In this document: in pieces, positions 10,538 through 25,762 of the stretch | Numbering within the stretch: the stretch's first letter is position 1 | Layout: each line of letters begins with the position of its first letter | Assembly: GCA_903904835.1 (NCBI GenBank) | Contig: CAIVEI010000070.1 | Span: forward strand, 62,001-126,000 | Reading direction: 5' to 3' | DNA length: 64,000 nt | DNA from: an uncultured Schlesneria sp. | GTDB lineage: Bacteria > Planctomycetota > Planctomycetia > Planctomycetales > Planctomycetaceae | Program-made: the position numbers and the translations under genes | The notes under the pieces: generated by a model | Seen by the model: the letters and a program-made list of their open reading frames with translations, nothing else | What the model was told of the DNA's origin: nothing | The model's database searches: none

Positions 10538-10655
10538 AAAAAAGCCGATGCGACCGAACACATCTTTGTGTCTGGTCGCATCGGCTTACGCGTTAACAGA
10601 TCTCCCGGCAATGGGCCGAGGGATCCTTTAAGTTGTCATCCGAGGATGTTGAAAG
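10538..10655 (-). promoter_or_regulatory. Repeated RNA attenuator element, copy E (before oleate hydratase)
   Basis: Read on the minus strand, the element shows CGGATGACAACTTAAAG, then a two-part hairpin (GGAT/ATCT outer, CTCGG/CCGGG inner with G-U pairs), then GTTAACGCGTAAGCC leading into a terminator. The terminator stem at 10542-10587 is 14 bp and perfect (AAGCCGATGCGACC with its complement), capped by ACACA/TGTGT, and ends in six T. The ohyA start is 45 bp further on. Stem sequence differs from the other copies but stays paired, which argues for RNA function. The ligand or partner is unknown. Confidence 0.75.
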
Positions 10656-11009
10656 TCGGAAAAGCCTGTCACGGTTCAAGGGCAATGCAGAGGGACAGAC
10701 CCAATTTCGTGGACAAGCGATGAATCCGAGGTTGTTTGCTCATCAAGGCTCGACGTTTCTCGCCATGAAAATGCGTCAGTCCCCGCCCGCACGGTGCCTT
10801 CGCACAAACATACGATAGACGCATATGCCGGCGAATCAAGCCAACTTCGGTAAAATGTGAATTAATAAATAATGTTAATTCCCAATCAAAAGTCACTTCG
10901 CTTAGGAATTAATGTGTTTACGGCTTGCTATCCTCGCAGCTTCATCTATGCTCTGCTTAGCGATTGATTTCTGAATGGCGGGTTCCTCGTATATCCGTTG
11001 TACAAGACT

Positions 11010-11124
11010 TACTCTCGTGGTCGTCGAAAGACTAGAAAAAGTGCAACCCACAGCTTGGGGAGCACGTTTCATAGTAAGCCGACGCGGTTTAACACCTCAG
11101 GGTGCTCACCGCGTCGGCTTTTTT
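11010..11124 (+). promoter_or_regulatory. Repeated RNA attenuator element, copy F
   Basis: The 5' part has a GTC-GAAA-GAC tetraloop hairpin at 11023-11032 running into GACTAGAAAAAG. Then comes the two-part hairpin GTGC-AA-CCCA ... TGGG-GA-GCAC, then ATAGTAAGCC, then a terminator (11076-11124) with stem AAGCCGACGCGG/CCGCGTCGGCTT and six T. It lies 110 bp before the gene at 11235, the first of a same-strand run reaching 17959. Confidence 0.75.
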
Positions 11125-11234
11125 CGTTTCTGGCCAGAACGGAAGCGAAGTTCGGACGAGTTAAGCCACGTAAAGCGTGCGAAATCGATTAAACAAAGTT
11201 TGAACGTTGACGAATCTCAAAAGGGGCAATTGAA

Positions 11235-11525
11235 ATGATTGACGCGATGAACAGAACCACGCCAGAGTATGCCGCGCGCGAGGCTAAAGAGCAGAGCGAA
11301 GACTTCATGACAAGAACGTTAGAAAACCAGGCGGCGAAAGTTCCGTCTGACATCTGGTTATTTGCGGCATTGGGCGCGATGGGTGTCTCGCTCTATTTGC
11401 AAATGCAATCCAAGAAGGAAGACAGCCAATTCGTTGGTCAATGGGCCGCACCACTGATGCTGATCGGCGTCTATAACAAGTTGGTGAAAATCGCGAGTGC
11501 CGATCGAGTTCACCGGGGCGCCTAA
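11235..11525 (+). CDS. Small membrane protein of unknown function
   Basis: 96 residues: a charged N-terminal half (about 35 residues) and two hydrophobic stretches (about 41-56, IWLFAALGAMGVSLYL, and 69-81, WAAPLMLIGVYNKL). It looks like a small integral or peripheral inner-membrane protein. It is the first gene after RNA element copy F, so it leads the predicted transcript that continues with a BON fragment, an SDR and a UbiB-like protein. I do not recognise a named family. Confidence 0.6.
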   Translation: MIDAMNRTTPEYAAREAKEQSEDFMTRTLENQAAKVPSDIWLFAALGAMGVSLYLQMQSKKEDSQFVGQWAAPLMLIGVYNKLVKIASADRVHRGA

Positions 11526-11554
11526 GACATTGAGCTAATTTGTAACCGGATGCC

Positions 11555-11824
11555 GTGGAATATCTTTCCGGGGTCAAAGGCGTTTCGAACAACATCACCC
11601 TGAACCCTTCAGTGCAACCAACTGCGGTCAAGGATTCCATCGAGAAAGCGCTGAAACGCGATGCCGAAATTGATGCCGAGAACATTACGGTTTCAGCGGA
11701 CGGTGGCAAAGTCACTCTGACGGGTTCGATTCGTAGCTGGGATGAGAAGGAAGAAGCGGGGTCTGCCGCGTGGAGTGCTCCGGGCGTGACGGAAGTGGAA
11801 AACAACCTTTCAATTTCCTACTGA
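11555..11824 (+). pseudogene. 5'-truncated BON-domain gene copy
   Basis: 89 codons from a GTG with no good ribosome site. The translation matches the end of the second and the whole of the third BON domain of the protein at 16672 (shared [15 protein letters not shown] and VTLTG-IRSWDE stretches, PGVTEV near the end). The first BON domain and most of the second are absent, and a stop lies just upstream in frame. BON domains bind phospholipid (OsmY, Kon family). It is best read as a truncated duplicate. It could still be translated as a single-BON protein, since its last domain is intact and ends in a normal stop. Confidence 0.55.
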
Positions 11825-12003
11825 TCCGCCACGTGCGGTTTGTCAGGAGCGACCGCTCCGTGACTCCAGGGAGCTTTCTGCGACAAGTCGTACTTCACGT
11901 TCCCTGACAGTAAGAACCGGTGAGTCATGCTGGAACATATTTGCGTTGTCAGCATGGCTCCCGTTTTTCAAACGAAACATCCAAATCTCAAGGAGATATG
12001 AAA

Positions 12004-24060: not shown

Positions 24061-24067
24061 GCCGTCG

Positions 24068-24163
24068 CTAGTCGACTCGGCGTCCTGAAAGAAGCTGCAG
24101 GACCAACATCACGACGGCAACTACCAATAGAAAACAAACGATGCAGCGGATTGAGTCTCCCAT
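24068..24163 (-). CDS. 31-residue single-helix membrane peptide
   Basis: Reading the minus strand from the ATG at 24163 gives MGDSIRCIV, a hydrophobic helix (CFLLVVAVVMLVLQLL) and the basic end SGRRVD, then a stop 7 nt before the start of the AI-2E-type permease. Such a short helix with basic tail next to a transporter is a common layout for small accessory membrane proteins. The ribosome site (AAGG) is close to the ATG, so translation strength is uncertain. Confidence 0.45.
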   Translation of the reverse strand: MGDSIRCIVCFLLVVAVVMLVLQLLSGRRVD

Positions 24164-24229
24164 TGCCTTATTCTGTTTCGATGTCACGAAAACAACGCAT
24201 ATTCAAAGTGAAATTTGCCGATGATGTCA

Positions 24230-25051
24230 TCATCGACTGTCGACCGTAACGGCGTTCTCTTGCGTCATGCGAACGGTATAGCTGGCTCCATTGGTCGGGC
24301 GAAATTCTTTCCTGTCAGCTTCCGTGCCACTCGTTTTCGCGTCCCAGGTAAAAAGTAGAACTGGAGGACGACTACGCTCGTAAGTAATCGTTTCTCGAGG
24401 GTTGACAACACACGCCTGCCCATCGATTGTATATTTCACAGGCGTGTCGATCCGATCGGATACCTTGAATGTGATCATTGCCGATTGAGGACGTCCAAAG
24501 TCCTGAACGGCATAGTATCGTCCCGTGCGACTGCTGCGAGCCAAACCGATACCAATGTCCTGCACATCAGGGTCCAGCAAGTTTCTGCGGTGTCCGGGTG
24601 AGTTCTCCCAGCCGACGACACAATCGCCTGCCAACGATTCGGCGGTGAAGCCATCCGAATCGTATTCGTATGCGAGGTTTTCCAGGACGATGCAGTGTTT
24701 GTAACCCGCCTTGGCAGTTCTGTCCCATGGCTCCTTACCATCGGCCGTATGGCTGAATTTGTCGGTACTTGCCAGGTACTCCGCAAAGGATTTGGCGGAA
24801 ACGGCCAGCTCAGAATTCCATTTCAACGCCCCACGCTTCTCTTGGGTTCGAAACTTATTCGTCCCCGAGAAAATCTGCTGTTCGACACGTTTCAGGTCCA
24901 CTGCAGGATTTGCTTCGGTGATGGGGCCATTACCCGGATCGACACTTTCGGTATGGAACTCTTGGATCTTCTGCCCGTAGGCAGTTGTCTGGCCGACGAC
25001 GCATACAGCCATGAGAAAGCCCCCCGACAACAAATATGTATGACGTGACAA
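24230..25051 (-). CDS. CAP-domain (SCP/PR1-like) secreted protein
   Basis: The frame is open from an ATG at 25099, but a TTG at 25051 has GGAG 7 nt upstream and gives a proper signal peptide (SRHTYLLSGGFLMAVCVVGQ, cleavage near TTAYG), so it is preferred: 273 residues. A CAP domain follows (~70-200): NKFRTQEKRGALKWNSELA, FSHTADG with a site His, ENLAY and GHRRNLLDP with the second His. Bacterial CAP proteins are exported and often act on the cell surface, though activity is rarely known. The C-terminal ~75 residues are beta-rich and unassigned. RNA element copy D lies upstream. Confidence 0.8.
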   Translation of the reverse strand: MSRHTYLLSGGFLMAVCVVGQTTAYGQKIQEFHTESVDPGNGPITEANPAVDLKRVEQQIFSGTNKFRTQEKRGALKWNSELAVSAKSFAEYLASTDKFSHTADGKEPWDRTAKAGYKHCIVLENLAYEYDSDGFTAESLAGDCVVGWENSPGHRRNLLDPDVQDIGIGLARSSRTGRYYAVQDFGRPQSAMITFKVSDRIDTPVKYTIDGQACVVNPRETITYERSRPPVLLFTWDAKTSGTEADRKEFRPTNGASYTVRMTQENAVTVDSR

Positions 25052-25243
25052 GATCCACTCCTGCTTCGCTGTTGATTGTGCCGTAAATATGAGAGTCATG
25101 AGCCATGGGATGTCATTGCTCGTTTCTTGGGATTGCCGGCATCGAAACGAGTGACTTTCGTCAGCATCGTCGCGGCCCGACTGTTGGCATTCATCATTTT
25201 GAGGTCATTCATCGGGTTCTCTTTTCCGATTCAGTGCGAAAAT

Positions 25244-25368
25244 AAAAAAGCCGGCGTGGACAAACACCCTGAGGTGATCTTCCACGCCGGCTTACAGTTA
25301 ATGAGCCCCCTGATACGACCAGGTTGCCCTTTAGTTAGTCATCCGACAACGTTTAACGACACTGAGAG
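25244..25368 (-). promoter_or_regulatory. Repeated RNA attenuator element, copy D
   Basis: On the minus strand: GTCGGATGACTAACTAAAG, hairpin GGGC-AA-CCTG ... CAGG-GG-GCTC, then TTAACTGTAAGCC and a terminator at 25248-25293. Its 13-bp perfect stem (AAGCCGGCGTGGA and complement) differs from the other copies by paired changes, has an inner CACC/GGTG and ends in six T. It precedes the CAP protein gene by about 195 bp (to the TTG start). Confidence 0.75.
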
Positions 25369-25640
25369 TGGCACTGACATTAGGCTGACCAGTCCCCCTT
25401 CGTGCGACTCCATCGTACGGGCTCTCGCTGGGAAAGCAAAGGGAGAAGACTTAATGTATGCCGCGGCAGCAGCTTAATGTCGCTGAATACAACGCATGAA
25501 GGCCGAAAGGCTCCACTACAAAAACGGGCAGGCGCATCCAGTCGGTTCGACTCCTGCTGTTCTCTCATTGAAAAGGGGCTCATTGCTATTCTGAATGAAT
25601 GTGGTAGCTTGATTGGCATGACGAAGTAGATTGCAATGCT

Positions 25641-25762
25641 CGCCTTTCGATGACGACGGACGACTGAATAAATAGCAGCCCGGCCCTGACCGAGACGCTT
25701 GTTAGCAAGTAAGCCGACGCGATGGGATACCTTGATGGTGTTCCGTCGCGTCGGCTTTTTTT
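25641..25762 (+). promoter_or_regulatory. Repeated RNA attenuator element, copy C
   Basis: GCCTTTCGATGACGACGG and GACTGAATAAATAGC are followed by a hairpin (AGC ... CCCGG/CCGAG with one mismatch ... GCT), GTTAGCAAGTAAGCC and a terminator at 25711-25762. The stem AAGCCGACGCGA/TCGCGTCGGCTT is perfect and ends in seven T. The DevCAB-like operon starts 82 bp downstream. Confidence 0.75.

Follow-up and report, generated by a model that had tools for sequence, protein, structure and literature searches.

In the general design of transcriptional ON riboswitches, a closing helix competes with the 5′ arm of an intrinsic terminator. Antitermination controlled by proteins is described in similar terms: BglG, SacY and LicT act on the RAT, a protein-stabilised single stem-loop of 29–30 nt that partly overlaps the terminator, and the ANTAR regulators EutV, AmiR and NasR combine a two-component output with a regulon of leaders, in which an antiterminator made of a pair of short hairpins, each with a hexanucleotide loop (A1, G4), overlaps an intrinsic terminator (as outlined in PMC3369931). 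Rhodopirellula-1, a cis-regulatory candidate from planctomycetes (Weinberg 2010), has a row in Table 1 of PMC2864571; the row gives cis-regulatory “y”, RNA “?”, Proteobacteria and Planctomycetes, and no Rfam number. Here we describe a family of structured RNA elements, six copies of which lie in a 64,000-nucleotide stretch of DNA from an uncultured Schlesneria sp. (contig CAIVEI010000070.1, positions 62,001 to 126,000; hereafter the window), part of an 8.18-Mb genome in 211 contigs. An earlier note on this DNA had read the copies as a family of riboswitch or attenuator leaders, and our analysis supports leader RNAs of the attenuator type. We put at roughly 0.7 the probability that the copies are transcription-attenuation leaders in which a rod-shaped hairpin and a terminator form an ON-switch, with a DUF2294 protein as the most likely stabiliser of the rod; the folds and the genomic linkage behind this reading are computational, and the trigger is our proposal.

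The element differs from the described systems in several respects. It is a single rod, 62 nt long in the reference copy and thus longer than the RAT, and its loop varies in length and sequence; a dual hairpin with A1 G4 hexanucleotide loops, as in ANTAR RNA, was rejected on these grounds. ANTAR and DUF2294 are different Pfam families, and RNA binding by DUF2294 is a proposal. Unlike the transcriptional ON riboswitches, the element matches no Rfam class, and in the genomes it is linked to a family of proteins. Mechanisms that set an antiterminator against a terminator are already known, whereas the RNA family appears to be new. In a search of the window against Rfam 15 at the gathering cut-off, only a tRNA was returned. 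Positions 10300–26000 gave RsaF alone at E ≤ 5 (21.4 bits, against a cut-off of 60), and 20 diverse loci searched at E ≤ 0.5 gave models of transfer-messenger RNA (tmRNA) in locus L184 only, where a tmRNA gene (2221–2598, reverse strand; genome G255) lies less than 1.5 kb from a leader copy. No prior description of the element was found in the open-licence literature, subscription papers and supplements being outside the scope of this search.

A covariance model of the element (R2) recovered all six copies at the places where they had been reported, with scores of 55.7–69.9 bits and a worst E value of 7.2e-12. The model was built from 61 rows, among them five of the window copies; the copy at 20564 (copy D) was left out of the training. 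A terminator-like hairpin and a T-run follow each of the six, and each copy aims, as the earlier note had claimed, at an open reading frame (ORF) on its own strand; the distance is 44–189 bp (6/6). Across 119 copies, the rod consists, from the outside inwards, of the outer helix UCGG/CCGA, a 3×3 purine loop AAG/AAG, ACU/AGU, a free 3×3 loop and UAA/UUA, and in its inner part of a 2×2 loop, (A)GC/GC(U), a further 2×2 loop, CCCGG/CCGGG and a terminal loop of free length, which is much longer in some rows. An upstream hairpin occurs in some copies, without conservation. The plan that had been drawn by eye needs correction in some of its parts. The GACTrAAtAAAG and TTAxTAAGTAAGCC boxes are indeed conserved, but they pair with each other as opposite strands of a single interrupted helix rather than being separate boxes. 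The tetraloop hairpin (GTC-GAAA-GAC or its TTTC form) is visible by eye in three of the six copies (at 11021 and 20564, and in the TTTC form before 18124) and lies outside the family plan, in which UCGGA(a/u)GAC is the conserved item instead. Every terminator stem quoted for copies D, E and F exists, but the copy letters are out of step with the note's own listing order. The ability of the terminator 5′ arm to pair also with the start of the element had been overlooked.

The pairing is supported by covariation. In the first ten copies, both-sided changes were found in 7 of 14 pairs, compared with a mean of 2.2 after shuffling, and none of 500 shuffles reached this number. In the 61 diverse rows, 90.9% of the cells were paired versus 79.7% in shuffled alignments; the cells with both-sided changes numbered 120 versus 28.6, and the covariation score was 0.413 versus 0.196, both values being reached in 0 of 500 shuffles. 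When the partners were slid by 1–3 columns, pairing fell to 24–42%. These rows are 61 of 70 non-redundant rows, four more having been set aside earlier; those dropped for long loops or odd alignment were L049, L050, L083, L131, L134, L141, L155, L156 and L159, and rows from relatives weaker than about E 1e-5 (except L069 and L079) were left out together with mirror-strand rows. Within the outer helix, pairs 5-64 and 6-63 are formed in all 119 rows, and at 6-63 the G-C pair is replaced by A-U in six rows; UCAG or UCAU faces CUGG in six rows, all of them ahead of one kind of gene, chalcone-synthase-like by eye. Pair 12-57 changes from C-G to U-A in eight rows, mostly ahead of kaiC-like genes. 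An A opposite a G is kept in the internal loops at 8-61 (108/119), 20-49 (92/119) and 25-44 (77/119).

The rod-closing CCGA doubles as the base of the terminator 5′ arm (AAGCCGA...UCGGCUU), and the terminator 3′ arm repeats the UCGG of the element start. With this sharing of CCGA by the outer helix (UCGG/CCGA) and the terminator 5′ arm, the rod and the terminator are predicted to be mutually exclusive. Partition-function folding of the 119 copies gave a mean outer-helix probability of 0.953 when the RNA was cut before the terminator 3′ arm (above 0.5 in 115 of 119), and in the full RNA a probability of 0.017 for the outer helix and 0.977 for the terminator. The predicted cost of forcing the rod in the full RNA was 9.1 kcal/mol on average (0 to 15.3). 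In the growing transcript, the outer helix stood at 0.82–0.93 up to four bases before the T-run, at 0.5 two bases before it and at 0.03 where it begins. A T-run was found behind 119 of 125 copies and behind 19 of another 22, compared with 10% of random stretches, although the covariance models span, besides the rod, just the terminator's first bases. The six copies left out of the 119 lack a run of five T in the vicinity, and one of these six lies at a contig end. Mutually exclusive antiterminator and intrinsic-terminator folds, by which an attenuator is recognised, are supported in silico by these predictions. Attenuation by a leader peptide was rejected, since such peptides were found in 5 of 147 copies versus 5.7 after shuffling, which is not above chance. 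A generic terminator of the genome was likewise rejected: AAGCCGACGCG has 20 sites in 8.2 Mb (9 for the reversed control), and 15 of the 20 lie inside element terminators.

A promoter-like motif, TTGC-(17..19)-TANNAT, was found upstream of 33 of 123 non-redundant copies, compared with 0.92 in shuffled sequence and none on the other strand. The gap is exactly 18 in 32 of the 33 matches, and 31 of them end 39–62 bases before the rod. The longer form TTGCWATT-N14-TANNAT has three sites in the genome of the window (8.2 Mb; reversed control 2), all directly upstream of elements, namely window copy C, C118 and C175:28751. In copy C, the pattern search placed TTGCAATT-N14-TATCAT at 18051–18078 on the forward strand; in copy F, TTGCTATT...TAGCTT at 25583–25610 on the same strand was found by eye and has a variant −10 box with the 18-base gap after TTGC kept. 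The next gene is co-oriented with the element in 114 of 137 cases, compared with 40 of 73 for the upstream gene. This count is noisy, as the ORFs were called mechanically in GC-rich DNA: 27 elements overlap a called ORF, for 10 the call downstream could not be used, and window copy B, whose 96-residue ORF was displaced, is one of the 23 counted as “opposite”. Divergent pairs are formed by window copies A/B and E/F, and others occur in genomes G000 (that of the window), G005, G015 and G022. From the orientation bias, the promoter motif and the divergent pairs, the copies look like leaders, many with their own promoter. None of the three outcomes that the earlier note had named as refuting it (no significant covariation, copies at random relative to genes, or identity to a known Rfam family) came true.

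The 102 distinct first ORFs behind the elements (102 of 108 non-redundant ones; counts are from the 25 commonest of 109 families) encode PAS (5), receiver (5), ice-binding-like (4), BON (4), HisKA (4) and MpsC (3) proteins. Single cases include a universal stress protein, CsbD, KaiC and a CheB/CheR protein, and several have no Pfam match. Judged from these family names, the targets read as a stress and signalling regulon. An ice-binding-like (PF11999) protein with a PEP-CTERM signal stands behind a copy in L049 (549–1424, reverse strand). Copies in tandem, an arrangement like that of riboswitch or attenuator arrays, occur on the reverse strand of L170 (1490–1557 and 1612–1676) and of L174 (4953–5018 and 5157–5223).

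DUF2294, named MpsC in Pfam (PF10057), first drew attention because its gene follows copies in genomes of different classes and in one viral contig. We searched for it in 37 genomes, the 25 nearest and 12 picked for holding elements. An element lies within 1.5 kb of 34 of the 50 mpsC genes; it is upstream and divergent in 15 of these, upstream on the same strand in 13 and otherwise arranged in 6. Elements between two divergent mpsC genes were found in G032, G161, G308, G317, G355, G015, G000, G001, G002 and G005. Among the 25 nearest genomes, mpsC is present in 10 of 13 with elements versus 1 of 12 without (Fisher p 0.001). In ten genomes, a receiver domain (PF00072) precedes DUF2294 in proteins of about 290–312 residues, so that a receiver is joined to the candidate output domain, as in a response regulator. 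Such fusions occur in all 8 genomes with at least five element matches and in 2 of the 29 others (p 1.2e-6; the genomes are related); they were judged by Pfam for 21 DUF2294 proteins, the rest being called single-domain from the length of the open frame, with one 300-residue frame of G001 outside the receiver scan. In the genome of the window, an element on contig C22 (L252, 8544–14249) leads an operon of kaiC, kaiB, kaiB, a hybrid PAS kinase and receiver-DUF2294, whose genes are co-directional with overlaps or short gaps; this is apparently a Kai-type module wired to a DUF2294 output. In G022, an element of 34.5 bits precedes a hybrid kinase and a receiver-DUF2294 gene. Being receiver-fused, adjacent to leaders, part of a leader-led operon and present together with a large regulon is what would be expected, by analogy, of a trans-acting antiterminator such as EutV. 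Deletion of mpsC in S. aureus, which belongs to the same family if Pfam's name holds, is reported to give no phenotype (PMC6689103).

The family, its covariation, the exclusive folds, the terminator, the promoter motif, the linkage to genes and to DUF2294 and the receiver fusion are supported in silico; that the promoter is used, which way the switch works, RNA binding by DUF2294 and its control by phosphorylation are what we infer. In the mechanism that we propose, transcription would start from a promoter lying some tens of bases before the element, and the nascent RNA would first fold the strand UCGG-[AAG]-ACU-[3]-UAA-[2]-AGC-[2]-CCCGG-loop onto the return strand CCGGG-[2]-GCU-[2]-UUA-[3]-AGU-[AAG]-CCGA. 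The two UCGG copies would then vie for the one CCGA through branch migration, and the decision would fall with the synthesis of the last 2–4 bases ahead of the U-tract. Since the terminator is thermodynamically favoured by a predicted ~9 kcal/mol, the default should be termination. A stabilised rod would let the outer helix persist and keep the base of the terminator open, and the stress or signalling gene would be transcribed, which would make the element an ON-switch. The most likely stabiliser is DUF2294, either alone or as the output domain of a response regulator in its phosphorylated state, which may contact the conserved purine internal loops.

That the trigger is a protein rather than a metabolite is favoured by the association of the element with DUF2294 response regulators, and we consider it about an even call. 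The broader proposal, for which we see slightly less than even odds, is that DUF2294 is an unrecognised class of RNA-binding antiterminators, free-standing or as a two-component output (sharing an operon with KaiC and KaiB in the genome of the window), that it serves, through a new antiterminator RNA, a stress and signalling regulon across the phylum as a second, independent invention of the ANTAR role, and that viral contigs use the same leader before their own regulators. Several observations weigh against the proposed mechanism and its trigger. On the side of the RNA, CCGA still paired with the first ten bases at 0.55 (from 0.95) after these had been shuffled, and pair 4-65 is present in only 90 of 119 rows. 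Pairs with both-sided changes number 14 of 18, barely above the shuffled alignments (11.0 on average, with 11 of 500 reaching this number) or the slid ones (10–13), so the strength of the covariation rests in the cells and the score, less in the pair count; moreover, the shuffles leave the relatedness of the rows in place, and the changes from G-C to A-U at 6-63, all before the same kind of gene, are perhaps one event. On the side of the protein, both p values overstate the association, because of the kinship among the genomes and because 12 of the 37 had been picked for holding elements. DUF2294 had no match in 6 of the 25 element-bearing genomes (G010, G011, G020, G412, G071 and G255), G017 holds DUF2294 without a detected element, for 16 of the 50 mpsC genes no element lies closer than 1.5 kb, and ten mpsC loci, when searched without filters, gave just two copies, both already known. 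The open-licence literature gave us no report that DUF2294 binds RNA, and the PDB no sequence relative; its predicted fold (predicted local distance difference test 89.6) had no PDB match at E ≤ 0.001 (best E 0.019), with TRAPPC3 and ribosomal protein chains near the top and none of them significant.

The main rival is a riboswitch, in which the rod, as an aptamer, would bind either a small molecule or a second messenger and the ligand would stabilise the outer helix and block termination. The element has the architecture of a transcriptional ON switch, with its closing helix overlapping the terminator arm, the conserved A·G positions of the internal loops (8-61, 20-49 and 25-44) could bind a ligand, a signalling molecule would go well with the high number of copies in a genome and the variety of their targets, and the six element-bearing genomes that gave no DUF2294 match fit as well. 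On the other hand, the model contains a simple rod with neither junction nor pseudoknot and a terminal loop that varies freely and is sometimes much longer, no Rfam class matches, and the linkage to DUF2294 and receiver-DUF2294 would be unexplained except as a target; we regard a riboswitch as unlikely, though a serious contender. Identity with the Rhodopirellula-1 candidate motif of 2010 is improbable: the phylum and the class of element fit, and the Rfam negative may not cover a motif that its table row gives without an Rfam number, but nothing seen ties the element to it, and the stretches found with one exact pattern over genomes of all phyla are labelled planctomycetes in 15 of 15 cases. 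We give still less credence to multi-copy small RNA genes that act in trans and stand in front of genes by chance. A promoter motif (33/123) and a terminator do flank the element, as such genes would require, but the downstream gene is far more often co-oriented than the upstream one (114/137 versus 40/73), the members of the divergent pairs each face their own side (A/B, E/F, G000, G005, G015 and G022), similar genes are linked to the element in related species, and the rod is predicted to compete with its own terminator. Least likely seems a temperature or other physical cue, for example cold, that would by itself, with neither a ligand nor a protein, tip the balance between rod and terminator; a decision by short branch migration at the U-tract and the presence of 4 ice-binding-like proteins among the 102 distinct downstream first ORFs would suit it, but the other recognised targets are general stress and signalling genes, and neither the conserved A·G positions nor the DUF2294 linkage would be explained.

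Other candidate protein partners of the leader were rejected. ANTAR proteins occur in 5 of 33 genomes, including the element-rich G013 and G022, and in 0 of 14 control genomes; they are missing from the genome of the window and from 6 of 8 element-rich genomes. The CAT_RBD domain (PF03123) of BglG and LicT was found in 0 of the 33 genomes and in 4 of the 14 controls. CsrA was considered on account of a viral copy ahead of a CsrA-like gene. Its number is unrelated to the number of elements, and none was found in G071 and G161 (both less than 90% complete); as a CsrA leader the element was rejected because GGA is dispensable, the start being mostly UCGGA with UCAG, UCGA and UCAU also occurring, while pair 6-63 is formed in 119 of 119.

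To our knowledge, little is known about the control of stress genes in planctomycetes. The element offers one RNA signature, readable in any genome, that marks a regulon of up to ~27 matches and a candidate regulator with its kinase, and through it a Pfam family whose function is unknown acquires a biochemical role that can be tested. If the link of the element to DUF2294 response regulators is true, it would be a new form of protein-controlled antitermination and would add another kind to the response regulators whose target is nascent RNA and not DNA, as the second such kind.

The distribution of the family is wide but patchy. In the genome of the window, the first model (R1, built from ten copies) gave 26 places at E ≤ 1, or 22 once four mirror-strand rows had been removed, and R2 gave 22 matches, 19 of them at E ≤ 1e-4. 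Among 40 genomes of relatives, 14 had R1 matches at E ≤ 0.01, with 0 to 27 matches per genome. In a sample of the phylum, R2 at E ≤ 1e-4 matched 13 of 392 genomes from several classes and, under strict filters, none in the other 379, a lower bound since 13 candidates were scored per genome. Genomes of other planctomycete classes hold 1–3 matches each, and R2 scores rise to 70 bits in genomes outside the family and to 68 bits in those outside the class. Beyond the phylum, we used exact patterns (all-phyla genomes and a viral collection) and one plasmid BLAST. A single exact pattern run over the all-phyla genomes gave 15 stretches, all labelled planctomycetes, and one copy as BLAST query gave no DNA match in plasmids. 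In L165 (4565–5312), a contig labelled as a metagenome-assembled genome of Candidatus Kuenenia stuttgartiensis, an element is divergent from mpsC, as in Schlesneria; this contig is from another class or mis-binned.

Several viral contigs from IMG/VR carry the leader. In L198 (780–848, reverse strand), L199 (10171–10239, forward strand) and L201 (984–1052, reverse strand), contigs of 192, 114 and 112 kb that are identical in the compared parts, a leader and terminator stand directly before a CsrA-like gene, and a gene for an SNF2-type helicase adjoins. In L200, which is 22.5 kb long and carries genes for terminase, portal and tail fibre, a leader of 71.8 bits (2873–2938, reverse strand) is located ahead of mpsC/DUF2294. 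The leader-bearing contigs may be planctomycete phages or, for L200, a prophage with host flank. Two viral matches of a first pattern, L009 and L010, were rejected because by eye they look like chance matches in coding sequence.

The six window copies precede genes of different kinds. Copy A (10538–10655, reverse strand; rod 10579–10646, terminator 10538–10588; 58.9 bits with R2) points at an MCRA-family, oleate hydratase-like gene by Pfam (8922–10493, reverse strand) across a gap of 44 bp, and G005 and G001 hold similar copies ahead of genes for such a protein. Divergent from it is copy B (11010–11124, forward strand; rod 11021–11084, terminator 11076–11124; 60.7 bits), which precedes the 96-residue ORF (11235–11525, forward strand) and has similar copies in G002 and G005. 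Copy C (18121–18236, forward strand; rod 18124–18190, terminator 18182–18231; 69.9 bits) leads a cluster of three genes, a weakly receiver-like one below the Pfam cut-off (18357–18863), a SpoIIAA-like one (18850–19293) and an aldolase gene (19265–20383). Copy D, the non-training copy (20531–20673, forward strand), comprises the upstream hairpin and rod 20564–20630 with terminator 20622–20673 (55.7 bits) and is followed by an ORF at 20861–21679 on the forward strand, whose protein is unassigned. Copy E (25244–25368, reverse strand; rod 25285–25349, terminator 25244–25294; 62.7 bits) faces a gene with a CAP domain by Pfam (24230–25099, reverse strand). Copy F (25641–25762, forward strand; rod 25653–25719, terminator 25711–25762; 69.8 bits), divergent from E, leads an operon of FtsX/MacB-like, ABC ATPase and HlyD-like genes, also assigned by Pfam (25844–28808, forward strand).

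Two further proteins of the window stand apart from the elements. A 622-residue protein (22192–24060, reverse strand) combines an AI-2E family transporter domain with B12-binding domains, one over and one under the Pfam cut-off, and a 797-residue planctomycete M66 metalloprotease (30079–32472, forward strand) carries StcE beta-sandwich and TagA domains.

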